Source of the DNA: Modestobacter altitudinis
GTDB lineage: Bacteria > Actinomycetota > Actinomycetes > Mycobacteriales > Geodermatophilaceae
Direction: 5' to 3'
Assembly: GCF_005930475.1 (NCBI RefSeq)
Contig: NZ_SJEW01000030.1
Location: forward strand, 1 to 54,116
Length of the DNA stretch: 54,116 bases
Shown: in pieces, positions 4,555 to 52,584 of the stretch
How the letters are laid out: each line of letters opens with the position of its first letter
How positions within the stretch are numbered: position 1 is the stretch's first letter
Translations under genes and position numbers: made by a program
The notes under the pieces: model-generated
Databases searched by the model: none
What the model saw: the letters and a program-made list of their open reading frames with translations, nothing else
Told to the model about the DNA's origin: nothing

Positions 4555-4670
4555 GCGACGTCGTCGACCTGCCCGACCCGGTCCCAGCCACGGCGAGCAG
4601 CTGTTCCACATCTCCGCCAGCGGCGTGAGCCCGGCGGATGCTCACCACCGGGAATCGGCCAACTGGCGTC
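4555..4670 (+). repeat. Quinone oxidoreductase 5' element, copy 1 (decayed)
   Basis: Matches codons 16-52 of the element: GACGTCGTCGACCTGCCCGA, then GCGAGCAGCTGTTCCACATC, then a tail ending CGGCCAACTG. The first 15 codons and the promoter are gone, and a base is lost after GTCCC, so no frame remains. It is the leftmost and most degraded of the larger copies. Confidence 0.8.
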
Positions 4671-4844
4671 ATGGCGCGAAAGGCGGCAGAGAGCGAGGTT
4701 CCCGGAGCAGCGGGCAGGAGGCGCCGGCTGACCTGCCGAGCGTCAGTGTGCAGGTGAACCGGTCCTCGGTGTGGGCTGACCGATGACTTCTCCGTGCCGT
4801 GCCGGTCTGTACGGCGAGCACCGACTCACCGGAGGCTGACACCG

Positions 4845-5408
4845 TTGCGAAGACTGACCTACGGCATGAACCTGAGCCTGGACGGCTACATCGCCGCGCC
4901 CGGCGACGACCTCGGCTGGAGCAGGCCGAACGACGAGCTGTTCCAGTGGTGGTCCGACCGGGTGGGGGCGACCGGCCTGGCGCTGTACGGGCGCAGACTG
5001 TGGGAGGGGATGAGCTCCCACTGGCCGGCCGCCGACCGGGAGCCCGGCGCCACCCCGGCGCAGATCGAGTACGCCCGCCGCTGGCGGGACATGCCGAAGG
5101 TGGTGTTCTCCTCCACGCCGAGCGCGGTCGAGTGGAACACCCGCCTGGTCACCGGCGACGCGGTTCCCGAGATCACCCGGCTCAAGGCCGAGGACGGCGG
5201 CCCCATGGACATCGCCGGGGCCACCCTCGCCGCGGCGGCGATGCGGGCCGGGCTGATCGACGAGTACGCGATCGTCACCCACCCGGTCCTGGTGGGCGGC
5301 GGCACGCCGTTCTTCACGGCCCTGGACAACTGGGTGGACCTGACCCTGGTGGAGACCCGGACGTTTCCCGACGGCGTGCTCCTGACCAGGTACGAGACCA
5401 GGCGCTGA
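4845..5408 (+). CDS. RibD C-terminal/dihydrofolate reductase-fold family protein
   Basis: A 187-residue cytoplasmic protein of the RibD_C (DHFR-like) family, close to the YyaP/YwjB group. The N-terminus RLTYGMNLSLDGYIA is the usual first strand and loop of the fold. GRRLWEGM and the C-terminal VLVGGGTPFF (the nucleotide-binding G-rich turn) are the family landmarks. Members are presumed NADPH-dependent reductases of unknown substrate. TTG 4845 is chosen because GGAGG at 4831-4835 lies nine bases upstream and the family N-terminus begins right after it. It sits between repeat copies 1 and 2 as single-gene cargo. Confidence 0.87.
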   Translation: MRRLTYGMNLSLDGYIAAPGDDLGWSRPNDELFQWWSDRVGATGLALYGRRLWEGMSSHWPAADREPGATPAQIEYARRWRDMPKVVFSSTPSAVEWNTRLVTGDAVPEITRLKAEDGGPMDIAGATLAAAAMRAGLIDEYAIVTHPVLVGGGTPFFTALDNWVDLTLVETRTFPDGVLLTRYETRR

Positions 5409-5653
5409 GTCCCCCGACGGACGGCTGGACCGGGTGGCTACCGGGCCGACCTGCACGGGCTGACCCCGCAGTGACCGGAAGTGTGGGGGTCCTCGTCGAG
5501 CGGGAGGGCCCGTACGTCTCAGCCCGGAGCCGACAGCTGGTCACCGTCCCCACTCCCCGCACCTCGGCGCGAGCCCTCCGCGGGGTCGGCCAGGACGATG
5601 CCCGACGGCCGCCGGTGCCCGTCACGGGATGGCGCCCCGGGGCCCGCTGTCCC

Positions 5654-5741
5654 TGGGCTGCCCGGCATGCGTGCTGTGCAGATCACCCGTTTCGCGGCCC
5701 CGAGGTCATCGACGTCGTCGACCTGCCCGACCCCGTCCCTG
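5654..5741 (+). repeat. Quinone oxidoreductase 5' element, copy 2 (frameshifted, truncated)
   Basis: ATG at 5667 followed by the conserved 5' core. One G is missing in the TTCGGCGG stretch (now TTCGCGG), which breaks the frame at codon 10. Similarity stops near 5741, after the GGTGACGG segment. The former -10 box reads TGGGCT. Confidence 0.85.
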
Positions 5742-5815
5742 GTGACGGCCGGCCGGCGGGCTGGCCGGATGCAGGTGGAGGGCCGGCGGCGGGTGTTGCA
5801 GCCGGCCTGAGCGGG

Positions 5816-6070
5816 CTACCGGATCAGTTGGACACGAACGGGGAGATCGAGGGATGCCCAGGCACGATCGGCGGTGAGCACCTCGGCCGGACTGCTGCGC
5901 AGTGCGCGAGCCAAGCAACACCGATCCCCCACGGACAGCGCTCGGCCTCCTTCGATCGCGCGACGGGGACCACAGGATCTCCCGGCGCCGCATTCGTGGA
6001 GCAGCTCTGTGCGCCTCCAGCATGACGATGCTCGAGTTCCACGCCCACACGGGCCCGCACCCCCGATGGC
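5816..6070 (-). pseudogene. VapC-like PIN-domain toxin relic
   Basis: The last 43 codons read in one frame as [16 protein letters not shown]..., then [21 protein letters not shown] and a stop at 5816. This is the classical C-terminal end of VapC PIN ribonucleases, with the LSVGDR and LTADRAW motifs carrying acidic active-site residues. Upstream on the same strand, an EILW segment typical of the preceding helix lies in a different frame, and no intact N-terminus with the first catalytic Asp is found. The toxin is therefore frameshifted and truncated. No antitoxin of the usual AbrB or RHH type is visible. It lies just after repeat copy 2. Confidence 0.6.
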
Positions 6071-7132: not shown

Positions 7133-7411
7133 CGTGGGTCCCGCCACGCCCGACCCGGAGCCAGCGGTGCTCCCCGACGCAGTGGCGACCCGGCTGGGCC
7201 TGGTCGTGCCGTGGTAGGCGGCTCGGTGTTCGTGATCTCGCTCGGTGCTGACGAGCAGCCATGGCGAACACCTCGCAGCGCACAGCGCGCTCTGCCTGCA
7301 AGGCCTGACGACTTCCGGGACATGACGGCCCACGAACGAGTCGACGAACTTCGCAACGCCCGCCCACCGGAGTGACCACCGGGTAGGAACCACCCGCCGA
7401 GTCCTCCCACC

Positions 7412-7590
7412 TGGCCCCACCCTCACGCGTGCTGTGCAGATCACCCGCCTGGCCGGCCCCGAGGTCATGGACGTCGTCGACCTGCCCGACACGGTCCCCG
7501 GGGACGGCGAGCAGCTCTTCTACATCTCATCCAGCGGCGTGAACTCCGCCGACACTCACCATCAGGTGTCGCGCGACTGACCTGACCCGG
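7412..7590 (+). repeat. Quinone oxidoreductase 5' element, copy 3 (start codon lost)
   Basis: Full-length copy aligned from 7425 to the TGA at 7578-7580, exactly 52 codons, but the ATG has become ACG. Scattered changes (FGG to LAG, F41 to S) show decay. The former -10 is TGGCCC. The tail after the stop (CCTGACC) matches the tail-A subfamily. Confidence 0.9.
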
Positions 7591-7761
7591 CGGCACGGGG
7601 GTCGCCCGAGCCCGCACCCGCGTGTGACGCTCGCCCACCACGTGGTCCATTGCTCGCCGACCGCCACACCACGCTCCACGGCCGGCATCGACTCGGGCGG
7701 CCCACCTCGGTGACGTCCCGCCGGGTGGTGTCAGTCCGGCATCCCCCCACCCAGCGGGACG

Positions 7762-8004
7762 TCAGCCGCCGGCACGCCCCTCAGTCGGTCGGACGGGGGT
7801 CCATTGGAAGACGTCTCCCAGGTCCTCCCCGAAGACATGTGCGATGCGGAACGCCGCTTCGAGGGAGGGGGAGTACCTGCCGGACTCGATTGCGGCGATC
7901 GTCTGCCGGGTGACGCCGATGCGCTGGCCCAGCTCGGTCTGCGACATCTCGCCGTGGAGGAACCGCAACGTGCGTATCCGGTTGGCCAGCGACCCCTCGA
8001 TCAC
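7762..8004 (-). CDS. XRE-family transcriptional regulator
   Basis: An 80-residue single-domain Cro/CI-type repressor: SLANRIRTLRFLHGEMSQTELGQRIGVTRQTIAAIESGRYSPSL... has the five-helix HTH_3 pattern, with the recognition helix in VTRQTIAAIE. The GTG start overlaps the TGA of the upstream membrane protein gene (GTGA), so the two are translationally coupled. This small XRE plus membrane-protein pairing is widespread in bacteria and archaea. The regulator probably controls its own operon through the AT-rich inverted repeat at 8468-8483. Confidence 0.88.
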   Translation of the reverse strand: MIEGSLANRIRTLRFLHGEMSQTELGQRIGVTRQTIAAIESGRYSPSLEAAFRIAHVFGEDLGDVFQWTPVRPTEGRAGG

Positions 8005-8423
8005 GACTGCCGGCGGTAGCTCGTCACCACGCACGCGTAGTGGACCACCTCTGCGAGGGTCACGGCGAACAGAGCCGCATTGATGATGTCCCAACCACTG
8101 TTGTTGAACGGCATCACGACACCGACCAAGATCACGCCGACGACCAGGACGTAGTACGCCGCGGCGACCGAGTGGCGGTCGATCGCACGATCACGTTCGT
8201 CGGGTGGCGTGCGCGCATCCAAGGGTGACCGGTGCCGCAGGTACCACCGCCCCGACCCGATCAGCAGCGCTTGGGCGAGGGCCGCGATTGCGAACAGGAC
8301 CAAGTAGTCCAGGCCCGGTAGGTCGCTGCTCGGTGGGGACACGGCGGCGCGGACGAAGTAGGGACCGAGGGTGAGGGCAATGGCGATCAGCGAGAGCCAG
8401 GCGATCTTCTCCCGATAGGGCAT
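8001..8423 (-). CDS. Integral membrane protein paired with XRE regulator (DUF2178-like)
   Basis: A 140-residue protein with four predicted transmembrane segments: IAWLSLIAIALTLGPYFV, YLVLFAIAALAQALLIG, SVAAAYYVLVVGVILVGVV and IINAALFAVTLAEVVHY. A charged loop containing RTPPDERDRAIDRHS, typical of DUF2178-like proteins, sits between segments 2 and 3. ATG 8423 is preferred because GGAGG lies five bases upstream. It is the first gene of a two-gene operon with the XRE regulator. Function is unknown; family membership is inferred from topology, the DERD loop and the partner gene. Confidence 0.75.
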   Translation of the reverse strand: MPYREKIAWLSLIAIALTLGPYFVRAAVSPPSSDLPGLDYLVLFAIAALAQALLIGSGRWYLRHRSPLDARTPPDERDRAIDRHSVAAAYYVLVVGVILVGVVMPFNNSGWDIINAALFAVTLAEVVHYACVVTSYRRQS

Positions 8424-8467
8424 CACAACCTCCAGCGTGTCGGGACGTCAGCCAAACCGTACATGAT

Positions 8468-8483
8468 GTTAAGTCTACTTAAC
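8468..8483. promoter_or_regulatory. AT-rich inverted repeat upstream of membrane protein/XRE operon
   Basis: GTTAAGT-CT-ACTTAAC, seven-base perfect arms with a two-base spacer, 45 bases upstream of the ATG at 8423. It stands out in this very GC-rich sequence and is well placed to be the XRE operator. Confidence 0.6.
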
Positions 8484-9004
8484 AGTCATTTCGCGAGGGT
8501 CCTGGCCGTCACATGCGGGAGGATGCCGATCCCGGTGTCCTGAGACGCATGTCAGCTGGTCGACGCGCCCGGGATCCGGGGCCCGGTGATGAACGGCGAC
8601 GAACGCCGGCCCAGCGCGCGCGACGATGACCGCCCTCCTCGGCTCGCAGCCGGTCGGGGTGGGGCCATGCGCGTGCGCGATCGGCTGCAGGAACTCGGCC
8701 CGACGCTGCCCCAGGCGCCGGCGATCCCGGTCACCACGACCGCATGGTGTCGATGGCACCCCCCGGTGGCCCCTTCGGAAGGGTGCAGGACTGCGTGTCA
8801 CCGGGGGGCACCACAGTCCGCGCGGCTGGCCGCCCTCGCTGTCTTCGCCAGCCGGGGGACCTGACCAGGACCTGGGCTCGGGGCAGTTCCTGGACTTCGA
8901 CCGCGTGAGCCAGGCGGCGGCGATCGCGACTCCGACGATGGTCGTGCACCCGCTCGCGGGCATGAACATCCTGCCGGACCTCGACGCCGCCCTGGAACTC
9001 CCTC
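8484..9004. other. Gene-poor region
   Basis: No open frame here shows a recognisable protein pattern, and no RNA gene, hairpin or repeat was seen. Confidence 0.4.
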
Positions 9005-9139
9005 CAGCCCCAGCCCGGGCCTCGCCGAACGCGAGATCTCCCAGGCGGTGCTGTTCCTGGCCTCCGACGGGGCGCGGTGCATCACCGGCGTCACCCTGCC
9101 GGTCGACGCAGGCAACACCAACACGCCCGGACGGCACAG
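9005..9139 (+). pseudogene. C-terminal relic of a short-chain dehydrogenase (SDR)
   Basis: Reads EREISQAVLFLASDGARCITGVTLPVDAGNTN, the standard last strand and helix of SDR enzymes (AVLFLASD..ITGxxxxVDAG). No Rossmann glycine motif or YxxxK catalytic motif lies upstream, so only the last 40 or so codons survive. Confidence 0.7.
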
Positions 9140-9371
9140 CTGCAGTCCCCTGCAGCGCTCGTCGCAGGAGGTCGCGGCGCCACGCAGAGTCAGCTCTTCG
9201 CTGACGTGCATCACCGCTGTCGGCCAACGGACACACCTCGCCGTCCCGCCTCCGAGCTCGCCACCGCCACGTGGCGGAAGACGCCCGCCACCTGGCGCTG
9301 GGTCTCCGCCGGGGGGCGAAGAGACGATGGTGACGGCGGTCACGATCGGCCGTCTCGCCCCAGGAGGATCC

Positions 9372-10376
9372 TTGACACTGACGTCACCTTCGGCAGCCAA
9401 CGGCGCGGACGCGCCCCAGCCGCCCTTCGACCCCCATGTCGCGGCGGCACTCGATGCGCTGGCCGGGCTCATCCCATCCGCCCTCACCGCCGACATGATC
9501 CCGCTGCTGCGCCAGCCCAACCCTGCGATGCCACCGGCCACCGACCAGGAGCTCAACCGGGATGGTGCCTTCACCGTCACCACCCGGTCGGTCCCCGGCC
9601 CGGAAGGCGCGCCGGACGTCGAGGTCATCGTCTGCCTCCCGACGGGCGCGGCCGCACCGACCGCAGCCGTCCTGCACACCCACGGCGGCGGCATGATCAT
9701 CGGCGACGCCCGCACCGGCCTGCTCGAGGTCATGGACTGGGCCGCCGAGCTGCAACTCGCCGTGGTGTCGGTGGAGTACCGGCTGGCCCCGGAGACGCCT
9801 CATCCCGGTCCGGTCGAGGACTGCTACGCCGCGCTCCTGTGGACCACCCGCAACGCCGCCGACCTGGGCATCGACCCCGATCGCATCGTGGTGGCCGGGG
9901 CCAGCGCCGGTGGCGGGCTGGCGGCGGCCCTGGCGCTGATGGCCCGCGACCGCGGGGACGTCGCCCTGGCCGGGCAGCTCCTGATCTACCCGATGCTCGA
10001 CGACCGCAACGACACCTTCTCCGCGCACCAGATGCGCGGTGTCGGCGTATGGGACCAGGTCTCCAACGACACCGGCTGGACGGCGCTGCTCGGGGACGAC
10101 CGCGGCGGCCCCCACGTCTCGCCCTACGCCGCCCCGGCCCGGGCCACCGACCTGTCGGGCCTGCCGCCGGCCTTCATCGACGTGGCGTCGACGGAGACCT
10201 TCCGGGACGAGGACGTCGCCTACGCCACCCGCATCTGGCAGGCCGGCGGCGTCGCCGAGCTGCACGTGTGGCCCGGCGGCTGCCACGGGTTCGACCAGTT
10301 CGTGCCGGATGCCCGGATCTCCCGCGAGGCCCGGGCCGCTCGGCTGCGGTGGCTGCGCCAGCTGCTCGCGCCGTGA
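9372..10376 (+). CDS. Alpha/beta hydrolase, hormone-sensitive-lipase type esterase
   Basis: A 334-residue carboxylesterase of the HSL (family IV) group. It has the oxyanion-hole motif HTHGGGMIIG, the nucleophile elbow GASAGG, and near the C-terminus the acid and histidine (DVASTETFRDED, GGCHGFDQF). It probably hydrolyses short-chain esters in the cytoplasm. The TTG start at 9372 follows AGGAGG (9362-9367) by four bases; an in-frame ATG at 9327 is the alternative. The PucR-type regulator gene follows 40 bases downstream on the same strand, so the two are likely co-transcribed. Confidence 0.88.
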   Translation: MTLTSPSAANGADAPQPPFDPHVAAALDALAGLIPSALTADMIPLLRQPNPAMPPATDQELNRDGAFTVTTRSVPGPEGAPDVEVIVCLPTGAAAPTAAVLHTHGGGMIIGDARTGLLEVMDWAAELQLAVVSVEYRLAPETPHPGPVEDCYAALLWTTRNAADLGIDPDRIVVAGASAGGGLAAALALMARDRGDVALAGQLLIYPMLDDRNDTFSAHQMRGVGVWDQVSNDTGWTALLGDDRGGPHVSPYAAPARATDLSGLPPAFIDVASTETFRDEDVAYATRIWQAGGVAELHVWPGGCHGFDQFVPDARISREARAARLRWLRQLLAP

Positions 10377-10416
10377 CGCCCTGGTCACCAGACGTTCGGA
10401 GGTCCACAGTGGGCCG

Positions 10417-11394
10417 GTGAACGACCTCGCGCTCCGCCTCGCGGCCCTGGACCCCGAGGCGGGCGCGGCGGTCCGGGTGATCGGGCACTTCGACGCGCTG
10501 ACCGAGGCGCGGGCGGACCTGCAGTCCATCGTCCGCAGCGCAGCCGAGCTGGCCGACTGCCCCATGCTGCTGGTCGACCGGCCCCGCGGTCTGGTCGTGC
10601 GCGTCCAGGCCGACGGCACGGTCAGCACCGCAGCGGACCCGGTCGTCGACCCGGGGTGGCCGTCGACCCAGGTGGCCGGCACCGACGCCGTGCTCTGGCT
10701 CGAGGGGACCAACCCGCCAGGGACCGTGCAGGCCGTCGTCCTGGAGCGGGCGGCGGCCGCCATCCGGACCGTGCTCCAACGGACCCGGTCACGTCGGGTG
10801 GTCGACGACCCGGCCTCGGTGGAGCTCGTGCTCGACGCTGCGGCCCCCGAGGCCGACCGGCTGGCCGCCGCCCGTCGGCTCGGGGTGACGACCACGGCAC
10901 GGGCGGTCGCCCTCGCCGGCGGCCGCTCCCTCGTGCTGGGTCTGGACGGCGTCCTTCCCGAGGGCGTGCGGCTAGGGGTCGGACCGGCCGCCGCGGTGGT
11001 CGACCTGCCGGCCTCGGGCGAGCAGGCCCGGCTGGCGCTCCGGCTCACCGCCGAGGGCACCGAGGATGATCCGGGCCCGCGGGTGGTGCACGCCGACGGA
11101 CTGGGCGCGCTGCCGCTGCTCGTGCGGGCCGCCGACGGCTCGGACGTGCCCGACGTCCGGGCGCTCGAGCACGCCGCAACCGTCGGGCCGTGGGCGCTGG
11201 CCACGCTGGACGCCGTCGCCACCGCGACGAGCCTGCGCGACGCCGCCCGGGCGCTGCACGTCCACCACTCCACGCTCCAGGACCGGCTGCTGCACGCCGA
11301 GACCGCGCTCGGCTGGGGTGTCCGTGAACCAGCCGGTCGACTGCGCCTGCAACTGGCCCTGGTGCTACGGCGGGCAGCCCACCATCGGCGCTGA
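10417..11394 (+). CDS. PucR/CdaR-type helix-turn-helix regulator
   Basis: A 325-residue regulator. The C-terminal 60 residues, SLRDAARALHVHHSTLQDRLLHAETALG, form the PucR HTH_30 domain (sLreaAraLhvHpnTLryRL). The N-terminal 200 residues look like a degenerate GAF/CdaR-like sensory region rich in Ala and Leu. GTG 10417 is the in-frame start closest to GGAGG (10398-10402), although the gap is long. It may control the upstream esterase. Its last 80 codons and downstream flank recur as a relic at 39155-39394. Confidence 0.8.
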   Translation: MNDLALRLAALDPEAGAAVRVIGHFDALTEARADLQSIVRSAAELADCPMLLVDRPRGLVVRVQADGTVSTAADPVVDPGWPSTQVAGTDAVLWLEGTNPPGTVQAVVLERAAAAIRTVLQRTRSRRVVDDPASVELVLDAAAPEADRLAAARRLGVTTTARAVALAGGRSLVLGLDGVLPEGVRLGVGPAAAVVDLPASGEQARLALRLTAEGTEDDPGPRVVHADGLGALPLLVRAADGSDVPDVRALEHAATVGPWALATLDAVATATSLRDAARALHVHHSTLQDRLLHAETALGWGVREPAGRLRLQLALVLRRAAHHRR

Positions 11395-11464
11395 GTTCTG
11401 CATGGGCCTCCGACCGATCCACGCGACCGTCCTGGCCGGCACTGATGCCGGGCTCGCCACGCCC

Positions 11465-11645
11465 CAGCCTGCTGCACATGCGTGCTGTGCAGATCACCCG
11501 CTTCGGCGGCCCCGAGGTCATGGACGTCGTCGACCTGCCCGACCCCACCCCCGGGGAGGGCGAGACGTTGTTCGAGGTCTCCTCGTCCGGCGTCGACTTC
11601 GCCGACACCCACCACCGGCTGTCGGCCGACTGACATGAGCCGAGG
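11465..11645 (+). repeat. Quinone oxidoreductase 5' element, copy 4 (51-codon ORF intact)
   Basis: ATG 11478 to TGA 11631-11633 encodes a complete 51-residue peptide ending ADTHHRLSAD. The -10 position reads CAGCCT, which has lost the T of TANNNT. The 5' flank (CAGCCTGCTGCAC) matches copy 11, because the pair belongs to a larger duplication that includes the PucR gene end. Tail-A subfamily. Confidence 0.92.
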
Positions 11646-11772
11646 CCGGGCTCCCGCCGCGTACGGGAGGCCGCACCGATCACCCCTGCTCACGGTCAGC
11701 GGCGGCGATGAGACCCAGATGCGCAGGAGAGACAGCCACCGGCACCGGCGTCGCCGGGCGAGCGCGCTCCCG

Positions 11773-12813
11773 TCAGACGGCGGTCAGGGACAGCCAGGTG
11801 GCGAGCATCATGCTCCCGATCGCCAGGCCGGGGAGGAGCACCAGGGAGCGATGGTCGACGAGCACCGCCACGAACTCCCGGAGGTAGGCGCTGGGCCAGT
11901 AGTACCGAGCAGTCGGAGCACCGATCGCCTGGGCGTCGATGCCGAGCACGCGCGCGAGCATGGCCGCCCGAGGAGCGTGGTAGTCGTTCGTGACCACCAG
12001 GTAGGGCGCGGGCACGCCATGCTGCTCCAGCAGGTGCGCGCTGTAGAGGAGGTTCTCCCGCGTGGTGCGTGACCGGTCTTCGACCAGGATGCCGTCGGCG
12101 GCCACCCCGTGCTGGCGGAGCCACTCCCCCATGACCCGGCCTTCGGGGTAGGGCTCATCCGGGCCTTGCCCGCCACTGACGACTATCGGGATCGGCTCGG
12201 CCCGCTCCTCGACGGCGGTGACGGCCCGGCGCAGTCGCGCGGCGAGCAACGGCGGCACCTGACCTCTGACCAGGCCGGCTCCGAGCACGATCACTGCCGA
12301 GCCCGACGCGCGCCGGGCCGTCCAGGAGTACAGCGCGGTGTGCACTGCGAACACCAGGAACAGCAGGCCTGCGCAGGCCTGGGCAGCGAGGAGGCCCACG
12401 GCCAGCGTGCCGGTCACCGGGTTCTCGTGGCGGAGCAACAGGACGAGGATGACGGGCAGGCCCAGCAGCGACAGCCCTGCCAGCAGTGACAGCGCGTTGC
12501 CCAGCGACCGGCTCTCCCGTCGGAGCATGAGGACGCCGTCCACGACGAGCAGCAACGGCAGGAGCAGGAGACCGAGAGCGACCACTCCTCCGACCACGAG
12601 GGTGACGGCGTCCGTCAGGCCCTCCAGGAGGGGAGACCGCGAGGCAACCAACACGACGAGCCCCAGCAGGTAGTGCACGGCGAGGACCGCGAGGACGCCG
12701 TTGCGTAGCGAGCGTGGATCCCGCCTCAGCGACCACACCAGCGCTCCGGTCACGGCGAGAGCACCGATGAGGGGGCTGAGGACGTGCACCGGGAAGTCGG
12801 TCGCGGGGCCCAT
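11773..12813 (-). CDS. YdcF/SanA-like (DUF218) membrane protein
   Basis: A 346-residue protein with about five N-terminal transmembrane helices (residues 8-165) followed by a DUF218 domain. That domain shows SAVIVLGAGL at its first strand, VVSGGQGPDEPYPEG, the ILVEDRSRTTREN motif and VVTNDYHAPRAAMLAR. A last hydrophobic segment (LVLLPGLAIGSMMLATWL) lies at the C-terminus. The family (SanA, ElyC, YdcF) is linked to cell-envelope integrity and vancomycin tolerance in other bacteria; its enzymatic role is not settled. Start ATG 12813 has no clear Shine-Dalgarno site. It is divergent from the lipase fusion gene. Confidence 0.88.
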   Translation of the reverse strand: MGPATDFPVHVLSPLIGALAVTGALVWSLRRDPRSLRNGVLAVLAVHYLLGLVVLVASRSPLLEGLTDAVTLVVGGVVALGLLLLPLLLVVDGVLMLRRESRSLGNALSLLAGLSLLGLPVILVLLLRHENPVTGTLAVGLLAAQACAGLLFLVFAVHTALYSWTARRASGSAVIVLGAGLVRGQVPPLLAARLRRAVTAVEERAEPIPIVVSGGQGPDEPYPEGRVMGEWLRQHGVAADGILVEDRSRTTRENLLYSAHLLEQHGVPAPYLVVTNDYHAPRAAMLARVLGIDAQAIGAPTARYYWPSAYLREFVAVLVDHRSLVLLPGLAIGSMMLATWLSLTAV

Positions 12814-45146: not shown

Positions 45147-45163
45147 CGTCACCCGTCGATGAT
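45142..45163. promoter_or_regulatory. Inverted repeat at the CmtR-like gene start
   Basis: ATCATCG, eight bases, CGATGAT. The arms are perfect and the left one covers the start codon. The placement suits an ArsR-family operator that blocks its own operon. Confidence 0.5.
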
Positions 45164-45328
45164 AGCGGTGACGGCCAGCACTGGTGTCGACGTCCCGTAC
45201 GCCTTCGACGTCCTTCACGACCATCGCCGCTTGGCGCTCGCCAGCTGCTCCGGCCCCTCCGAGAGGCCGTAGACCGTGAGTGGTGACGGGCTCGTCAGGG
45301 TGGGACCACTCACGTCCGCAGCAAGTCA

Positions 45329-45500
45329 TAGCCTCACGCCCATGCGTGCTGTCCAGATCACCGAGTTCGGCGGCCCCGAGGTCATGGACGTCGTCGACCT
45401 GCCCGACCCGGTCCCCGGGGACGGCGAGCAGCTGTTCGACATCTCCTCCTCCGGCGTCAACTTCGCCGACACCCACCACCGGGAGTCGTGAGAGGTAGAT
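45329..45500 (+). repeat. Quinone oxidoreductase 5' element, copy 12 (49-codon ORF and -10 box intact)
   Basis: TAGCCT at 45329-45334, seven bases, ATG 45342, TGA at 45489-45491; 49 residues ending ADTHHRES. R8 is E. Tail-B subfamily (GTCGTGAGAGGTAGATC). Its upstream flank (CGCAGCAAGTCATAGCCTCA) matches that of copy 13. Confidence 0.92.
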
Positions 45501-45586
45501 CAGCGTCCGGCCAGCGGGCTGTGTTCGGCAGCCTCGCGGTCATCCGTTGGTCGGAGGCGGCTTGGGGAGCGACCTCGGTCAGCCGC

Positions 45587-46906
45587 TCAGAAGGAGTCGA
45601 GCTGAGTGTCCAGGTCCGGGTATCGAGTGACCGACGGGCTGTCGATCACGGCACCTCGAGCGACGACCATCCGCGGGTTCACGAAGGCACGGAACCCGTC
45701 GAGTGGGTTGCCGTCGAGCAGGACCAGGTCAGCGGCCTTACCGGGCTCGATCGATCCAGTGACATCGTCGAGGCCGAGGATCCTTGCATTCGTTTGAGTC
45801 GCGGAGTTCAGCGCCTGGGCCGCGGTGAGGCCACCGTAACGGACGAGGACGTCCATCTCGCGCCATGCGTCGTAGTGCGTGACGTAGGTCAGCGCCGAAT
45901 CCGTTCCCATGCCGATCGCAATCCCGTTCTCACGGGCGGCATGGATGCCTTGCACCATCTCGTCGAGGACCATGGTCGCGTTGGCCCTGACGATGTCACT
46001 GGCACCCGTGATCTCCTGGGCGAACTCCACCAGCGGAAGACACACCAGCAACGTCGGGACGAGCGCCGAAGAGCCGTTGAGCGACCGCGGGTTGTCGAGG
46101 AAGAGATCGATGATCTCCGACGTCATCCGCGCACCGTGCTCGATCGTGTCGACCCCGGCGCGGAGGGCCGCGTAGATGCCGTCCGCGCTCTGTGCGTGCG
46201 CGGCGACGCGGATGCCGGCGTTGTGAGCCTCTTCGCAGATCGCCGTCATCTCCTCCTGGGTCATCTCCGGCCGCCCGGCGTAACCGACCGCGCGCGCGTC
46301 CGTGACGCCCGCGGTGGCAGAGATCTTGATCGCCTTGACACCACGTTGGACGTTCCTGCGGGTGTTGCGGCGCGCGTCCCACGGTGAATCGCTGGTGAGA
46401 GCGATCTGAGGTGCTCCATGTCCTCCGGTGATCGCGAGCAGCGGCCCAGAGGCCAGCACGCGCGGCCCGAGGTAGTCACCCCGATCGATCTCGCCCGCAA
46501 CGTGGACAACCTCATAGCCGGTGTCGCCAACCGTGCGGATTGTCGTCACTCCCGAGTGCAACTGGATCAGGGCATTGGTCTTTGCGCGCCTCTTGAACAG
46601 ACGCCGCCCGATCGGGCTGCGGCCCAGCTTCGTGACGAGCGCCGCCGTGGACTCCTTGACGAGGAACGGCGGAAGCGGCAAGCCGTTGGAGAACAAGTGG
46701 GCGTGGGCGTTGATCAAGCCGGGCACGAGGTGGTGCCCGGGCATGTCCATGAGCCGGTACCCGGGTGGGGCGGGCGTGTCCGCAGTCGGCCCGACTCGCT
46801 CGATCGCGCCGCTTGCTCCTACGACGACGCTCTGAGCAGCCAAGACGGTCCCGTCGGCGTCGCCGGTGACTATGGAGACGTCGGCCAAGGCGAACGGTTC
46901 CGGCAC
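45587..46906 (-). CDS. Metal-dependent amidohydrolase family protein
   Basis: A 439-residue amidohydrolase with the TIM-barrel metal site: HLVPGLINAHAHLF (HxH on strand 1), GVKAIKISATAG (bridging Lys), IRVAAHAQS and VDTIEHGAR (two further His) and GTDSALTYV (catalytic Asp). Flanking beta-sandwich pieces come from both ends (SIEPGKAADLVLLDGNP). It belongs to the imidazolonepropionase/prolidase-like group, whose members hydrolyse Xaa-Pro dipeptides, N-acyl compounds or xenobiotics such as ochratoxin; the substrate is not evident. The GTG start has AGGAG eight bases upstream. It may act with the FAD monooxygenase upstream. Confidence 0.9.
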   Translation of the reverse strand: MPEPFALADVSIVTGDADGTVLAAQSVVVGASGAIERVGPTADTPAPPGYRLMDMPGHHLVPGLINAHAHLFSNGLPLPPFLVKESTAALVTKLGRSPIGRRLFKRRAKTNALIQLHSGVTTIRTVGDTGYEVVHVAGEIDRGDYLGPRVLASGPLLAITGGHGAPQIALTSDSPWDARRNTRRNVQRGVKAIKISATAGVTDARAVGYAGRPEMTQEEMTAICEEAHNAGIRVAAHAQSADGIYAALRAGVDTIEHGARMTSEIIDLFLDNPRSLNGSSALVPTLLVCLPLVEFAQEITGASDIVRANATMVLDEMVQGIHAARENGIAIGMGTDSALTYVTHYDAWREMDVLVRYGGLTAAQALNSATQTNARILGLDDVTGSIEPGKAADLVLLDGNPLDGFRAFVNPRMVVARGAVIDSPSVTRYPDLDTQLDSF

Positions 46907-47119
46907 GGGAGAACTCCTCGCCGTCGGAGGTTGCGCGGGACGCTACCGGAGGGACTGGAGCTGCCGGAAGGACCATCCGGCTCCTGCCAGAGCGTCGACG
47001 GTGGGAGCACCCCGCCCCTGAGCCTCGTCCAGAGACCTGGAAGAGGCAGAGCCGCGCCGGGCGTCGGTCCTCGGCGGGCCATCCGGATCCTCGGCGGGTC
47101 CGTACGCAGCCGCGGACAC

Positions 47120-48358
47120 CTACGGAACCAGACGTCCCGAGCTCGGCCGGTCAGTGTCCGGACCCCGAGCGGGCGCGGTCCAGCGCAGCACGGCCGCACC
47201 CGCAGCCACGGCCGGACCCGCCGGGATCGCCCTGATCGCCGCGTTTCGCAGGACCTGTGGCAGGCCTCCCGGGACGTGCGCGCCGAACCGAGCCGTCAGG
47301 AGCGAGCGGCGGGCGATCTGCCGGCACCGCGGACGTCGGGCGCTGTCGAACGCGGCCAGCGCGTCAGGCAGCGGCATCCCGGCGTCGACCGGCTGCGCGA
47401 TCAGTCGCCCCACACACACGCCGTCCTCGAGCGAGGTGTTGGCGCCCTGCCCCATCGTGGGCAGCATGGCGTGGGCTGCGTCGCCGATGAGGACGGTGCG
47501 GCCGCACACGAAGGTCGGGAGTCCGCCAGGAAGGTGGTGGACGTCGTGCCGGAGGAGCTTCGTGGCACTGGTCGCGGCCACCGTCGCGCTGACCTCCGGC
47601 GCCCAGCCGGCGAACTGCTCGGTCGCCGCGGCGAGCTCGTCTGCGAAGGCCTGCCCGGCGGGATGGCGGAAGTAGCCGTACCAGTACACCTGGCTGTCGC
47701 TGATCCGCACGGCGCCGAACTCCGCAGACGGCCCCCACCAGACGGCGAAGCCCGCAGAGGTGATGCGGTCGTCGTCCACCACCGCCCGCCAGCTCGTCCA
47801 CCCGCTGTACTGCAGGGCCACACCCGCTCGTGGGAAGAGCAACCCGCGCGCGGTGCTGCGGGCACCGTCGGCTGCCACCAGGAGGTCCGAGGTCCGGGTG
47901 TGCAGTCCTGCGCCGTCCGACCAGGTGACGGAGGCCGGCATCCCCGACGGGACGCCCGCCTGCACGTCGATCACGCGTGCGCCGGTGAGCAGGTCACACT
48001 CGCCGGCGGCGGCCAGGAGCACCGCGTGCAGCCGCTGCCGGTGAACGCCGCACACGCGGTTCACCGCAGCCGCCCCGTCCGTTCCCACCGGCGGGATCCG
48101 GAGCAGCCAGCGGCCCCGCCGGTCCCGGGTGCCAGCCGCGAACGTCTCGTACCCGGCTGACCGGACGTGTGCGGCGACCCCGAGAGCGTCCAGCGCCGCC
48201 ATCCCGTTGCCGGTGATCGCCAGGCCTGCGCCGACCTCCCCGAACTCAGCCGCGCGCTCCAGCACGAGGACCCGCCAACCGGCCTGGGCCAGTGAGCTGG
48301 CTGCGGACAGCCCCGCCAGGCCACCACCGACGATGGTCGCGGTGCGCCGTTCGCTCAT
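47120..48358 (-). CDS. FAD-dependent monooxygenase, salicylate-hydroxylase-like
   Basis: A 412-residue group A flavoprotein monooxygenase. GGGLAGLSAASSLAQAGWRVLVLERA (residues 11-36) is the FAD Rossmann motif, DLLVAADGARSTAR carries the DG fingerprint and VLIGDAAHAMLPTMGQGANTSLEDG the GD motif that binds FAD ribose. It hydroxylates an aromatic or similar ring using NAD(P)H and oxygen; the substrate is unknown. GGAGAGG is five bases before ATG 48358. It is upstream of the amidohydrolase on the same strand, with about 210 bases between. Confidence 0.92.
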   Translation of the reverse strand: MSERRTATIVGGGLAGLSAASSLAQAGWRVLVLERAAEFGEVGAGLAITGNGMAALDALGVAAHVRSAGYETFAAGTRDRRGRWLLRIPPVGTDGAAAVNRVCGVHRQRLHAVLLAAAGECDLLTGARVIDVQAGVPSGMPASVTWSDGAGLHTRTSDLLVAADGARSTARGLLFPRAGVALQYSGWTSWRAVVDDDRITSAGFAVWWGPSAEFGAVRISDSQVYWYGYFRHPAGQAFADELAAATEQFAGWAPEVSATVAATSATKLLRHDVHHLPGGLPTFVCGRTVLIGDAAHAMLPTMGQGANTSLEDGVCVGRLIAQPVDAGMPLPDALAAFDSARRPRCRQIARRSLLTARFGAHVPGGLPQVLRNAAIRAIPAGPAVAAGAAVLRWTAPARGPDTDRPSSGRLVP

Positions 48359-48431
48359 CGCTGCCTCTCCCGACCAGTCGTCGTCGGCGACCCGGGACCG
48401 CCACCGTGCGCTGCCCTGTCGCAGCAGGTCA

Positions 48432-48603
48432 TGGCCTCACCAGCATGCGTGCTGTGCAGATCACCCGCTTCGGCGGCCCCGAGGTTATGGACGTCGTCGA
48501 CCTGCCCGACCCTGTCCCCGGGGACGGCGAGCAGCTCTTCGACATCAGCTCCAGCGGCGTCGACTTCGCTGACACCCACCACCTCCTGTCGTGAGAGGCA
48601 GGT
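48432..48603 (+). repeat. Quinone oxidoreductase 5' element, copy 13 (49-codon ORF intact)
   Basis: ATG 48445 to TGA 48592-48594; 49 residues ending ADTHHLLS. The -10 position reads TGGCCT. Tail-B subfamily, ending CGTGAGAGGCAGGTC. Codons 34-42 use AGC serines and GTT/CCT variants not seen in the intact gene. Confidence 0.93.
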
Positions 48604-48640
48604 CCACGCCCCACCGGCAGAGGGACGACCGCCGCGGGAC

Positions 48641-49783
48641 TCACCGGGGCCCGATGGTGAGCCTGGGTCTGTCACTTCGCCCCGCCGCGACGACCGCGTG
48701 CAGGGACTCCAGCGGGATACGGGCGGCCTCCGCCAAGGCGCTGAGTCGGGTCCCGCTCTGCTCCAGGAGTTCGGCAGCGGCCCCCAGGACGCTGGGGCTC
48801 TCCGGTGGTCCGAGCGGTCCCGGTTCGGGGTGCCCCCACGTCTTGAGTTGCCGGTTGGCGCGGCGATAAGACAGATCCGGCAGACGCCCGAGCTCGTGCG
48901 CCCGGTAGACCAGCGCCTTCAAACTGACACCCCAGTGGCGCTTCAGGGCATGGAACGTCTCCCAGTCCACACGCGTCGGCAGACAGTCCTCGATCTCGGC
49001 CTGCGGCATGAGGAACTCGGCGGCGAACGACATGGCCTGGGACTCGACGACCGTGGACCCGGCCTCACTTCCTCCGTGCATCAGCAGGTGCCCGAGTTCA
49101 TGAGCGGCGTCGAAGCGGCTGCGCGCCTTGTCGTCCTTGAGCGGGGACATGAGCACGAGAGGGCGGCCTGACGCCGTCTCGGAAGCGGAGAAGGCGTCGA
49201 CCCGAGGATCGAAGCCCTCGGCCGGCAGTCGGACGACGAGCACGCCGTGGGCTTCCAGCAGGCGGACCACGTGCGGAACGGGTCCGGTGCCGACCGACAG
49301 CTCCCGCCTCGCTCTGCGCGCGGCATCGGCGATCTCCGCTCCGGACGGCTGCGGAGGCAGGCCGATCGGCCGGAGACGCATCGGAGGCAGGTCGACGTAC
49401 CGCTCGACCAGATCCAGCACCGCCAGCGCCAGTTCCCCGAAGGCAAGGGCTTGCTCGCGCCGTCTGGCCGGGGTGCTCCGGAGGGAACGGAAGTGCGCGG
49501 TCGAGGGAGGCACCTCGGGGATGTCGAGGCCGCGGGAGAAGAACTCCTCCGGCATACCGAGCGTGAGGCCGAGACGGGTGAGCACCGTCGTGGTCGGGCG
49601 GGCCGCTCCGCGCTCGAACTGGGTCACCGCGGCCGGGGTGACCTCGATGCGCCGAGCCAGCTCCGCCCGCGTCATGCAGGCCAGGCGACGGCCGACCGCC
49701 AGGCGGCGGCCGTCGAAATCCGCCACGGACCCCGAACTGCGGCGCCGCCGCGCGGCGGCGACCCGCGGAGGTTGCTCGGTCAT
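48641..49783 (-). CDS. XRE HTH plus ImmA/IrrE-type metallopeptidase
   Basis: A 380-residue two-domain protein. Residues 24-85 form an XRE HTH (LAVGRRLACMTRAELARRIEVTPAAVTQFERGAARPTTTVL). The second domain is an ImmA/IrrE (COG2856) zinc peptidase with FDAAHELGHLLMHG (HExxH) and a downstream Glu in ESQAMSFAAEFLMP. Such proteins cleave repressors in phage and conjugative elements, and also act as antitoxins in TA pairs. Its ATG overlaps the stop of the upstream gene (ATGA), so the two are a coupled pair. The arrangement resembles the RosmerTA defence toxin-antitoxin design; identity with it is not proven. Confidence 0.9.
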   Translation of the reverse strand: MTEQPPRVAAARRRRSSGSVADFDGRRLAVGRRLACMTRAELARRIEVTPAAVTQFERGAARPTTTVLTRLGLTLGMPEEFFSRGLDIPEVPPSTAHFRSLRSTPARRREQALAFGELALAVLDLVERYVDLPPMRLRPIGLPPQPSGAEIADAARRARRELSVGTGPVPHVVRLLEAHGVLVVRLPAEGFDPRVDAFSASETASGRPLVLMSPLKDDKARSRFDAAHELGHLLMHGGSEAGSTVVESQAMSFAAEFLMPQAEIEDCLPTRVDWETFHALKRHWGVSLKALVYRAHELGRLPDLSYRRANRQLKTWGHPEPGPLGPPESPSVLGAAAELLEQSGTRLSALAEAARIPLESLHAVVAAGRSDRPRLTIGPR

Positions 49784-50514
49784 CGCGTGGCCTGCTCCGG
49801 CCTCCGCTTCAAGGACACGGGTGCCTCGGGGACGTCGCGCTCGGAGAACGCCGACGCCGCCGGGCCCCGTGGGACGTCGTCCGTCGTGGCCTCGGCGGCG
49901 GCGGTCATGTCATCGCGCCACAGCGGGGTGACGGCGAGCCATCGTGGTGGGCCCAGGTGCGGCAGGCCCAGCCAGCCCGCGGTGAGTCCCGTGGTGTCCC
50001 CGGCCCAGACGAAGAACACGTCCCGCCACACAGGGCACCGCCCCGACCAGGGGATGTCGAAGTCGAACGCCAGTTGCCCCTCCATCGGCGGGGGCGGGAG
50101 CACGCCGTCGCCAGCGTTCCGGGCGGCGGCGTGACGCGTGGTGCTGGTGTCCCAGACGAAGCGGGCCCACTCCGGTTCGCGGAGCCGCAGGCCCGGGGCC
50201 TTGATCACATGCACCGCCAGGTCATCGACGTGGATCAGCAGCGAACCGTGCGGCACGGTCAGGCGTACGCCTCGCGCCCGCCACGGGGCCCGAGGCGAGC
50301 GGTAGTCGGCCAACATGCGCTCGCGCAGGTTCTCCCACGCCAGACCTGCGACCCCCCGTGGCGTGTCGAACAGGTGGGACGGCTCGTAGCGCTCGGCGTT
50401 GGGCCGCCACATCATCCGCGTCGCCTGGCGCAGCCACGCCAGGACTTCGCGTTCTTCCAGGGCCTGCTTGCACTCGTGCAGAGCTGCCAGCGCGGTCACG
50501 TCCCAATCGGGCAC
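49780..50514 (-). CDS. Uncharacterised protein paired with XRE-ImmA/IrrE gene (candidate toxin)
   Basis: A 244-residue soluble protein of no family that I recognise. Visible traits: a helical N-terminus (VTALAALHECKQALEEREVLAWLRQATRMM), a central beta-rich part (GSLLIHVDDLAVHVIKAPG) and a stretch rich in Trp (WARFVWDTST, WSGRCPVWRDVFFVWAGD). No signal peptide or membrane helix. The GTG start has a TAATCT -10 box six bases upstream and is probably leaderless. Being first in a two-gene operon with an XRE-peptidase regulator suggests that it is the effector or toxin. Confidence 0.7.
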   Translation of the reverse strand: MPDWDVTALAALHECKQALEEREVLAWLRQATRMMWRPNAERYEPSHLFDTPRGVAGLAWENLRERMLADYRSPRAPWRARGVRLTVPHGSLLIHVDDLAVHVIKAPGLRLREPEWARFVWDTSTTRHAAARNAGDGVLPPPPMEGQLAFDFDIPWSGRCPVWRDVFFVWAGDTTGLTAGWLGLPHLGPPRWLAVTPLWRDDMTAAAEATTDDVPRGPAASAFSERDVPEAPVSLKRRPEQATR

Positions 50515-50520
50515 GATGAA

Positions 50521-50543
50521 AGATTAAGCAGAATCCGCGGAAT
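50521..50543 (-). promoter_or_regulatory. Leaderless promoter and near-palindromic operator of the XRE-ImmA pair
   Basis: On the minus strand, TAATCT (50521-50526) stands six bases before GTG 50514. AATCCGCGGAAT (50532-50543) is palindromic except for one base pair and lies between the -10 and -35 positions, where the XRE protein could repress. Confidence 0.5.
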
Positions 50544-50696
50544 GCGGTAGAGATGAGCAGCCGCGAGCGCGCATTCGGGTCGCAGAATCGACCGGTAGCG
50601 GCTATGGCGCGCGAGGTACATCGGAGGTCCGACTCAGCACGTCAAAGCGGTGCCCTGTCAGCCCACGGACCGCCGGAGATCACGGGCCTGCCAGAG

Positions 50697-51488
50697 TCAA
50701 CGCAGCCAGTCCGCGGCTTCGCGGGCGATGTCAGGCGGCACGGTGTGCGGCCCGGAGAACTCGCGGTACGTCACGTCGTACCCGTCGTCGCGCAGTCCGG
50801 GCACGATCCTCCTGCTGGTCCGGTCGATCGGCAGGACTTCGTCGGCGTCGCCGTGGGAGACGAACACCAGCGGGGTGCCCTGGCGCTCCGCCCCCGGCGG
50901 CACGAAGCCCGGGGAGAACGCGACGATTCTCCGGAACAGGTCGCCGTTGGCCATGCCCAGGCCGAGTGCGTAGGAGGCACCGTCGGAGAACCCGGCCACC
51001 GCCACTCGACCCGCATCGACCGCGAACCCGGAGAACACCCGCGTCAGCGCCCGGTCGATGACTGCGGCGTCCCGCCCGTAGGCACCGCGGATGGCGTCCC
51101 ACGTCGTCTCGCGGGACGCCGGCGCCAGCAGCAGCAGGCCACGTTCATCCGCCAGAGGCTGCAGCAGGGCCAGTCCGGCGGCTGCGTCGCCCCCCGCTCC
51201 GTGCAGGGTCAGGACGAGCGGCGCCGCCGTATCCGGAGCGACGGTCGGCGGGACGTACAAGAGCGGGTCCCGGTCGGCCTCGAGACCCAGCGGATGGGTG
51301 CCCGGAGTGCTCGGTGGACCATCCGAGGACCCGGTCGGCGCTGCTCCCGGGCGCGCCGTCAGAATTGCGCCATCTGCCTGCCCGGCCCCACCACGGAGTC
51401 CGTCCGACAGCCGGATGCCGCAAGCAGCGAGCAGGCCGGCGCCCGCGATCTCGCCAGTCACCAAGAGGAACTGTCGGCGCGTCAGCAC
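50697..51488 (-). CDS. Tat-exported lipoprotein esterase, PHB-depolymerase/LpqC-like (copy B)
   Basis: A 263-residue paralogue of the gene at 27090-27881, the same length and nearly identical through the catalytic region. It has TRRQFLL as the twin-arginine stretch, the lipobox LLAAC (Cys23), VLTLHGAGGDA, the nucleophile elbow GFSDGASYALG, VSHGDADEVLP and SGPHTVPPD. It is divergent from the intact quinone oxidoreductase, with 124 bases between. The N-terminal third differs more than the rest. The GTG start follows AGGAGAGG closely. Substrate unknown; a polyester or acyl-ester is expected from the family. Confidence 0.9.
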   Translation of the reverse strand: MLTRRQFLLVTGEIAGAGLLAACGIRLSDGLRGGAGQADGAILTARPGAAPTGSSDGPPSTPGTHPLGLEADRDPLLYVPPTVAPDTAAPLVLTLHGAGGDAAAGLALLQPLADERGLLLLAPASRETTWDAIRGAYGRDAAVIDRALTRVFSGFAVDAGRVAVAGFSDGASYALGLGMANGDLFRRIVAFSPGFVPPGAERQGTPLVFVSHGDADEVLPIDRTSRRIVPGLRDDGYDVTYREFSGPHTVPPDIAREAADWLR

Positions 51489-51599
51489 AAGCCTCTCCTA
51501 CCCCGACCTGACGAAGTCCTTCTGCGAATGCCCTCGAAGGTTCGTCGAGGGACCGCGACGGTGTCCGCCTCCCGCGTCCGGCTCTCAAGGGCCGCGCCC

Positions 51600-51605
51600 T
51601 AGCCT
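51600..51605 (+). promoter_or_regulatory. Leaderless -10 box of the intact quinone oxidoreductase gene
   Basis: TAGCCT followed by seven bases and the ATG at 51613, the spacing expected for a transcript that begins at the start codon. The same box and spacing occur in copies 11 and 12, and altered forms occur in most other copies. Confidence 0.65.
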
Positions 51606-51612
51606 GACGGGC

Positions 51613-52584
51613 ATGCGAGCTGTGCAGATCACCCGCTTCGGCGGCCCCGAGGTCATGGACGTCGTCGACCTGCCCGACCCGGTCCCCGCGGACGGCGAGC
51701 AGCTGTTCGACGTCTCCTCCTCCGGCGTCAACTTCGCCGACACCCACCAGACCGAGGACAGCTACCTCGCCCCGCAGCAGCTCCCGCTGATCCCGGGCGC
51801 GGAGTTCGTCGGCACACCTAGCGGGGGCGGCCCGCGGGTGGTCGGGCTGCTCGCCGGTGGCGGCTACGCGCAGCAGGTGGCCACGAACCCGCGGCTGACC
51901 TGGCCGGTGCCCGACGCGGTCACCGACGAGCAGGCGCTCGCCGTCGTCCTGCAGGGCGCCACCGCCTGGCACCTGCTGCGCACCTCCGCCCACCTGGCCG
52001 AGGGCGAGTCCGTGGTGGTCATCGCCGGCGCAGGCGGGGTCGGCTCGCTCGCCGTCCAGCTCGCCAAGCGCTGGGGCGCCGGCCGGGTCATCGCGACCGC
52101 CTCCAGCCCCGAGAAGCGCGAGCTCGCCGAGTCCCTGGGCGCCGACGCCACCGTCGACCCCGCCCTCGCCGACGACGACCCGAAGACGTTCACCGCCGCC
52201 CTGCGCGAGGCCAACGGCGGCAAGCGGGTCGACGTCGTCCTGGAGATGACCGGCGGGCACGTGCTCGACGGGTCGCTGTCCGCGCTGGCGCCCTTCGGCC
52301 GGCTCGTCGCCTACGGCATGGCCGGTCGCGAGGCCCCGCGGCCGGTCAACGTCCCCTCGCTGATGGGCACCAGCCGCGCCGTCATCGGGTTCTGGCTGGC
52401 GCACTGCTTCAGCCGCCCGGAGATGCTCGACCAGGCGATGGGTGAGTTGCTGCCGCTGGTCGCCGACGGCGCCCTGCAGCCGGTGTCCGGTGGCCGCTAC
52501 CCGCTGACCGCCGTCCGCGAGGCGCACCAGGACCTCCGCGCCCGCCGCACCAGCGGCAAGCTCACCCTGGACCCCACTCGCTGA
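51613..52584 (+). CDS. NADPH:quinone oxidoreductase, zinc-type MDR family (intact parent of the repeats)
   Basis: A 323-residue medium-chain dehydrogenase/reductase of the quinone oxidoreductase type. The N-terminal GroES-like domain starts MRAVQITRFGGPEVMDVV and runs through GVNFADTHQ (the QOR signature) and PLIPGAEFVG. The Rossmann domain has VVIAGAGGVGSLAVQLAK (about residues 136-153). No structural or catalytic zinc cysteines are present, as usual for QORs. It reduces quinones with NADPH. It is the only full-length member in the window. The first 46 codons match the 13 elements, and the -10 box TAGCCT suggests leaderless expression. It is convergent with the mannitol dehydrogenase gene. 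Confidence 0.95.
   Translation: MRAVQITRFGGPEVMDVVDLPDPVPADGEQLFDVSSSGVNFADTHQTEDSYLAPQQLPLIPGAEFVGTPSGGGPRVVGLLAGGGYAQQVATNPRLTWPVPDAVTDEQALAVVLQGATAWHLLRTSAHLAEGESVVVIAGAGGVGSLAVQLAKRWGAGRVIATASSPEKRELAESLGADATVDPALADDDPKTFTAALREANGGKRVDVVLEMTGGHVLDGSLSALAPFGRLVAYGMAGREAPRPVNVPSLMGTSRAVIGFWLAHCFSRPEMLDQAMGELLPLVADGALQPVSGGRYPLTAVREAHQDLRARRTSGKLTLDPTR

Follow-up and report, generated by a model that had tools for sequence, protein, structure and literature searches.

The window analysed here, a stretch of 54,116 nt that makes up the entire contig NZ_SJEW01000030.1 of the 5.18 Mb draft genome of Modestobacter altitudinis, contains an intact quinone oxidoreductase gene (qor) preceded by a row of copies of its own 5' end, with other genes lying between them. 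This arrangement seems to be explained by the insertion of cassettes at one point in qor, each of them rebuilding the gene, with the host XerC/XerD recombinases as the most likely engine, and the probability of this explanation as a whole can be put at about 0.75. A cassette would consist of a tail of approximately 24 nt, mostly with an in-frame stop codon, followed by cargo on either strand, a -10 box, and qor codons 1-45 ending in TTCGCCGACAC-CCACCA. Such a cassette, most likely circular, would recombine with the chromosomal site in qor. Upon insertion at the intact gene, the resident 5' end would be severed and capped by the stop codon of the tail, and the incoming 5' end, together with a hexamer that presumably acts as its promoter, would be joined to the remaining part of qor, leaving an intact gene at the right end. 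Repeated insertion would then produce a row of truncated copies in the same direction. The putative engine would be host XerC/XerD acting on a dif-like site, with partners that share the XerC half and the centre and not the XerD half. The layout of the array, a unit common to different arrays, its boundary, and its sharing between genera are apparent at the level of sequence.

To the left of the intact gene there are nine full-length truncated copies of the qor 5' end and four fragments, all on the + strand (Table 1). The original prediction, made from the letters of this stretch alone, had counted 13 extra copies in one orientation, with the intact gene at the right end; strand, position, and number are borne out, although four of the 13 are fragments and not full-length copies. 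It had also assigned one tail to seven copies and a second tail to three; two tail types do exist, but reading by eye in the window gave six tail-A-like and four tail-B-like copies and one decayed. The two possibilities it had raised, tandem accretion at one gene and a cassette array with a boundary element of roughly 180 bp, appear to be one and the same process here, namely insertion in qor. New points are the crossover at CCACCA, the spread across the family, the recognition that the tail is a conserved site containing an in-frame stop, and a lead to the recombinase. The repeat begins near position -17, includes a TANNNT hexamer whose first base lies 13 nt upstream of the ATG, and extends as far as nt 137 of the gene, where CCACCA ends. 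The nine full copies match intact qor at 86-94% over 138-162 nt, with E values of 1.8e-62 to 2.5e-45, far beyond chance, and the rest of the genome contains nothing comparable, with three weak matches (69-85% over 34-133 nt). A repeat scattered through the genome in both orientations, which the original prediction had named as a refuting result, is not what is observed.

The product of intact qor matches Pfam ADH_zinc_N and ADH_zinc_N_2, with ADH_N slightly under the cut-off, and its right flank (qor followed by F3, F4, F5, and so on) is kept in relatives. Regarding the left side, a near-empty site is present in genome G005, where F14-F11 lies 0.4 kb from qor, and in G007, G019, G017, and G001 the array stands between F11/F15 and qor. 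G008 contains the intact gene only, but the adjoining F20 resembles a gene of a window cassette, and it is therefore not a clean empty site. Local duplication of the gene followed by decay, with unrelated genes inserted between the copies, would account for the decay of four of the 13 extra copies. Nevertheless, the full copies end at the same base with a tail that the gene lacks, and in other species the intervals are found again next to different genes, so this explanation is scarcely credible.

Several cassettes recur beside different neighbours: F38-F42 in the window genome (G000) and G002, F27-F29 in G004 and G020, F55-F59 in G016 and G017, and F13-F60-F61 in G016 and G018. This sharing crosses genera, as in the pairs G017/G030 and G047/G025, and agrees with the original prediction in that the shared intervals are bounded at the repeat. 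The cassette at 39602..45478 is the clearest example in the window: between G000 and G002, its tail is 96.7% identical, its cargo 96.4%, and its right repeat 98.7% (136/137 ungapped), whereas outside it the left repeat is 76.5% identical (MAFFT columns including the stretch before the ATG; 115/137 ungapped) and the next 60 nt 47.1%. Among 112 family genomes, with two candidates scored in each, the segment 39640-45300 is nearly whole in G002 only, and the other matches are parts of it at 69-89%. A shared tail, cargo, and right repeat with differing outsides suggest that the unit comprises the tail, the cargo, the promoter, and qor codons 1-45, and this is very probably the moving unit, inserting at one point and rebuilding qor each time.

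The left boundary of this unit was located with 13 pairs of cassette starts, chosen for at least 30 nt of shared sequence past the insertion point with the upstream sequence unshared, and with 188 same-genome control pairs. From -60 to -6, mean identity is 0.60-0.89 in the 13 pairs and 0.70-0.87 in the controls, and in the hexamer 0.99 and 0.94, respectively; from +0 on, it is 0.75-0.91 against 0.28-0.68. The jump in the mean of the 13 pairs lies directly after CCACCA, at qor codons 45-46, and the tail matches in 12 of them (0.77-1.00). The tail side of the boundary is sharp, unlike the right end, where similarity spans the hexamer and the ATG in seven pairs and reaches CCACCA in two (G000/G002 and G067/G069); in G016/G018, the repeat is 88.2% identical and the cargo 98.5%.

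Matches to the qor repeat were found in 101 of the 112 family genomes, belonging to 10 of 12 genera, and at least two matches in 60 of the 112 by a hand count (the best candidates, up to seven per genome, being scored in both cases); a few of them are other genes, such as a 71% match in G005. In a comparison set with one genome per species, 168 copies (123 truncated and 45 intact) were mapped on 59 stretches of 54 genomes. Intact qor is the last copy in all 45 stretches that have one, 38 of which also contain a full truncated copy, and in 41 of the 45 it is followed by at least 2 kb of further sequence to the right; no inverted copy was found at E 1e-4 among the mapped stretches. Truncated copies were mapped in 47 genomes, which belong to seven genera and include 14 of 23 Modestobacter genomes, but 47 of 54 is not a rate, since the first 18 genomes were Modestobacter and the other 36 were mostly chosen for several or strong matches. 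Array genomes include M. excelsi 1G6 (G002) and M. caceresii (G001), and other array genera include Blastococcus and Geodermatophilus. The intact gene is also last at eight additional loci, at one of which it is the sole copy in the stretch, and the stretch covered in G101 has no clear intact qor. The intervals between repeats have a median length of 3.2 kb (n=109). Among 397 genomes of the order, 14 outside the family have single matches at E 1e-20 (an array there could be missed, with up to two candidates scored per genome), and these 14 matches end where the match of the intact gene ends. The core-plus-tail pattern occurs in 13 stretches of an 84,980-species collection, all of them from Geodermatophilus, Modestobacter, Blastococcus, or Goekera, although a diverged tail would escape this search. 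Among the matches listed for the open PubMed Central literature, no description of a qor cassette array was found.

The rebuilding of the gene at each insertion would explain how a coding gene can be a repeated insertion target without being lost. All 44 intact genes examined have a TANNNT starting 12-14 nt upstream of the ATG, as do 54 of 83 truncated copies, and this position is the place of the -10 box for a leaderless transcript. The reading frame remains open in 84 of the 106 truncated copies that have their 5' end, and in 71 of these 84 it meets a stop within 30 nt of the crossover, compared with 15 of 123 in a control placed 60 nt further on; the in-frame stops concentrate at 19 nt (37 copies) and 13 nt (28 copies). 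Moreover, pN/pS is 0.47 in the truncated copies (82 sequences) and 0.30 in the intact genes (44 sequences), and 1.14 and 1.52, respectively, in the +1 frame. The frame and pN/pS data fit 5' ends that would once have served working genes and have since been relaxed.

With regard to the enzyme, 40 of the 52 open reading frames called in the window were scanned for domains, the remainder being mostly short frames of the repeats themselves, and no recombinase or transposase family was matched among these 40 proteins, two of which matched nothing; the original prediction had likewise seen neither integrase nor transposase. Across the family, each genome has 1 to 29 tyrosine recombinase matches. The array genomes G007 and G047 have two each, with XerD and XerC as best equivalog matches. 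Serine recombinases, IS110, and Y1 gave no match in G047, so that the XerC-/XerD-like pair is all that the four families searched contain in it. In seven genomes searched, IS110 matches occur in four (five in G007 and none in G047) and Y1 matches in none. The serine recombinase family PF00239 gave no match in the array genomes G016, G018, G022, and G047, nor in 39 of the 112 genomes in total, absences that are not airtight since a fragment in G007 escaped the search. The array genomes that lack such a match argue against a system of the Ccr type.

A single chromosomal dif site, separate from the array, is present in 12 of 12 genomes searched, at a distance of 0.56-0.96 Mb from the array by contig coordinates in G003, G007, and G022. 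A XerC-arm matrix built from these 12 dif sites was scored on 44 intact qor genes. The 11-mer preceding CCACCA has a median rank of 2 among 1924 positions and lies in the top 1% in all 44 genes, and within 40 nt on either side the best offset is exactly this 11-mer in 43 of them. Two of ten choices of arm and centre stand out by rank fraction, a 6-bp centre for the XerC arm (0.0010) and an 8-bp centre for the XerD arm (0.0016), the candidate centres being CCACCA (6 bp) and CCACCACC (8 bp). Just before the crossover, rare AT-ending codons occur in a minority of 45 intact genes, with AAT in 7/45, TTT in 7/34 Phe codons, and ACT/ACA in 7/45, compared with a background use of 2.4%, 0.9%, and 2.9%, respectively, in the fetched stretches of the genus, which hints at a role at the DNA level. 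Two synonymous haplotypes before the insertion point, GC-rich (AACTTCGCCGACACC) and AT-richer (AATTTTGCGGATACA), are mixed within single arrays (G019 and G021). Passages of PMC5357621 describe elements that match dif in the XerC half and the centre and diverge from it in the XerD half, as well as the cer site, which has an 8-bp centre; thus, a dif-like site with a divergent half or an 8-bp centre would have precedents. Host XerC/XerD are the favoured engine, at a confidence that falls slightly short of even odds.

The same cassette array could be moved by a dedicated integrase acting in trans from another element, such as a phage or a conjugative island, or since lost. The number of tyrosine recombinases, which often exceeds the Xer pair, is in favour of this possibility, as are the Dehalococcoides ssrA islands that have no integration module and that, in a passage of PMC3146451, the authors interpret as mobilised by their neighbours. 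However, G047 carries six truncated copies and the intact gene with nothing beyond the XerC/XerD-like pair, G007 has the same sole tyrosine pair plus a serine recombinase fragment, and none of the 40 scanned window proteins is a recombinase. An integrase in trans is a serious competitor, somewhat less probable than the host Xer pair.

Several observations speak against cassette insertion with rebuilding of qor by host Xer, and some of them concern the boundary and the array. In one of the 13 pairs (G003/G064) the tail is unmatched (0.35), and in single pairs upstream identity amounts to 0.86-0.89. Of seven pairs sharing a right end that were aligned, five lose similarity approximately 40-70 nt into the gene, before CCACCA; such fading may result from a variable exchange point, or from intact genes recombining at a time when the cassette was still the newest one. 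Circles and movement were not seen among genomes that represent one per species. The age order along the array that would be expected from the tandem accretion originally predicted is not seen by repeat bit scores (rho -0.11, p 0.43, n=50), two weak inverted matches (15-17 bits) appear at E 1e-2, and G050 has its array on one contig and the intact gene on another. RecA-type homologous recombination between the repeats, looping cassettes out and in with no site-specific enzyme, would benefit from the 86-94% match of the full repeats to the intact gene and would agree with parts of the repeat being apparently exchanged independently of the cassette in the five pairs mentioned. Crossovers of this type would, however, be expected anywhere in the repeat, whereas the mean of the 13 pairs stays at baseline upstream and exceeds it from the first base after the insertion point, and the cut and tail shared by unrelated cassettes would be left unexplained, which makes this mechanism improbable.

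The other objections concern the Xer engine. Of the four recombinases assigned to XerC or XerD in G007 and G047, three score somewhat under the NCBI curated cut-off, and G007 contains an open serine recombinase fragment of 84 codons (48 bits, above the Pfam cut-off) in addition to its five IS110 matches. The right half of the site in qor is not Xer-like (rank fractions of 0.38 and 0.67), and the tail of the truncated copies, taken as a XerD arm with an 8-bp centre, reaches the 86th percentile of the background as the best of eight spacers. Furthermore, the 44 genes share ancestry, so that their arm match counts as approximately one event, with p near 0.001, or near 0.01 after ten choices, and the protein with normal codons sets most of this match (8.14 compared with 7.70 in synonymous shuffles).

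Among known systems, chromosomal integrons resemble the qor arrays in having one fixed platform and many same-direction cassettes, common to several species. They differ in that here no IntI was seen (in the 40 window proteins, or in G007 and G047, which have only XerC/XerD-like enzymes), no folded site was seen, the intervals have a median of 3.2 kb and contain genes of either strand, and a protein gene, rebuilt per insertion, serves as the platform. A true integron, with IntI acting on folded attC sites and the integrase lost, would account for same-direction cassettes at one end platform, as presented for chromosomal integrons in part of PMC8618304, but the cargo often consists of several genes on both strands, and 123 truncated sites give no folding signal (mean z of -0.22 for the top and -0.46 for the bottom strand, compared with -0.83 and -0.49 in 44 intact genes). 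Folding of the attC type was rejected in view of z values in truncated sites that are no lower than those in intact genes, and a true integron is highly improbable.

The tandem ssrA islands of Dehalococcoides and the staphylococcal cassette chromosome (SCC) are similar to the qor arrays in that tandem units lie at one gene with a copy of the gene end at each boundary, and islands without integrase exist. As described in a section of PMC3146451, the Dehalococcoides islands use a 20-bp repeat of the 3' end of an RNA gene, and an integration module with a Ccr-like recombinase occurs in 16 of 31 of them. In contrast, the unit here carries 137 bp of the 5' end of a protein gene plus a promoter, and no recombinase was found in the scanned cargo of the window. 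Xer-dependent elements, or integrative mobile elements exploiting Xer (IMEX; the CTX, VGJ, and TLC phages and the gonococcal island), also have no recombinase of their own (seen here for the window cargo only) and, according to a passage of PMC5357621, share the XerC half and the centre while the XerD half is divergent, but they integrate at dif, whereas the array site lies in qor, away from dif. Acinetobacter pdif modules are likewise small adaptive modules with dif-like sites at their borders that XerC/XerD are thought to move. Parts of PMC6449649 place them mostly on plasmids and count their pdif sites in the C/D as well as the D/C orientation, unlike the array sites, which have one orientation within each stretch and rebuild a gene. 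The system is classed as tandem, site-specific cassette accretion, which resembles both the integron and the ssrA islands; of the defining features of the former, neither an IntI nor a folded site was found in the searches made here.

The arrays could tentatively be regarded as a separate, integrase-free class of cassette storage, driven by XerC/XerD at a dif-like site within a coding gene, with a new promoter and 5' end per insertion and at least seven genera trading cassettes; we consider this possible, at somewhat less than even odds. If so, one actinobacterial family would have a standing device for gene storage and exchange that needs no integrase gene and that integrase-based finders would therefore miss. 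This raises the testable question of whether housekeeping Xer recombinases can drive an integron-like array. Same-direction 5' gene copies with a common tail could be used as a signature to search for other such systems.

Table 1. Features of the window. In the nine full truncated copies, CCACCA ends at the base after which the insertion point is given.
Start..end	Strand	Feature
4557..4671	+	Decayed copy: repeat 3' part (4557-4647) and tail
5651..5749	+	Decayed copy: 5' part alone, without insertion point
7409..7585	+	Truncated copy, tail A; insertion point after 7561
7562..11614	+	Cassette: HTH, weak cytochrome b561-like, alpha/beta hydrolase, PucR-type regulator
11461..11638	+	Truncated copy, tail A; insertion point after 11614
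11615..21158	+	Compound interval with two decayed repeats: DUF218, lipase, PAP2, trypsin/PDZ, AI-2E transporter, epoxide hydrolase, WYL regulator
18272..18313	+	Decayed fragment: core and tail (fragment 18272-18301, core then tail)
20732..20776	+	Decayed fragment: 5' part
21007..21182	+	Truncated copy, tail B; insertion point after 21158
21159..26041	+	Cassette: X-Pro peptidase-like, protein with weak hydrolase match alone, PaaX regulator
25888..26065	+	Truncated copy, tail A; insertion point after 26041
26042..28301	+	Cassette: two alpha/beta hydrolases
28148..28325	+	Truncated copy, tail B; insertion point after 28301
28302..32185	+	Cassette: mechanosensitive channel, FGGY kinase
32031..32209	+	Truncated copy, tail A; insertion point after 32185
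32186..39601	+	Cassette: EAL-GGDEF, MFS, chemotaxis receptor, PucR end
39450..39625	+	Truncated copy, tail A; insertion point after 39601
39602..45478	+	Cassette: luciferase-like monooxygenase, MFS, TetR, cation efflux, ArsR, then promoter and qor 5' end
45324..45502	+	Truncated copy, tail B; insertion point after 45478
45479..48581	+	Cassette: amidohydrolase, FAD-binding monooxygenase-like
48427..48605	+	Truncated copy, tail B; insertion point after 48581
48582..51749	+	Last cassette: IrrE-like/HTH, unknown, esterase-like
51596..51749	+	Putative promoter and qor codons 1-45 brought by last cassette; -10-like TAGCCT 51600-51605, ATG 51613
51613..52584	+	Intact qor, 323 aa, right end of array, presumed insertion target
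51733..51749	+	Insertion point: XerC-arm-like 11-mer TTCGCCGACAC then CCACCA; truncated copies diverge after it

The cargo of the window is varied and includes hydrolases, regulators, transporters, a chemotaxis receptor, and an EAL-GGDEF protein, among others, with genes on either strand. Part of the cassette 7562..11614 is common to G002 (95.4%) and to G047 (87.7%), which belongs to a different genus; parts of the compound interval 11615..21158 are found in G001, G047, G022, and G025 at 80-84%, and the first 2 kb or so of the last cassette also occurs in G002 with other neighbours (95.9% over 1995 nt). Two cassettes have the 3' end of a PucR-type gene at their right ends (11161-11398 and 39161-39398, 93% over 238 nt), one being a whole gene and the other a remnant, and the same occurs in G002 and G047; the joining of new cargo to an existing right-end module may be a way in which cassettes are born. 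Similar esterase-like genes on the - strand end two cassettes (27085-27384 and 50692-50991, 91% over 300 nt). Rfam gave no match in the window at gathering scores, and a tRNA-Arg (ccg) called by ARAGORN at 46085-46162, within the amidohydrolase gene of the opposite strand and with no such Rfam match, may be false. In G050, the array in C3 (5001-65000) is followed by approximately 39.5 kb to the right without the intact gene, which is near the end of C15, and a large insert may have arrived later, as hinted by the serine recombinase at C3:3774. Finally, copies at L155 (G088:C49) 4880-9187 and L159 (G101:C1) 9812-15180 have other tails, with GCGTAAGCC, CGCCTGAGC, or CGCCTAAGC shortly after CCACCA, which could represent a third tail class.

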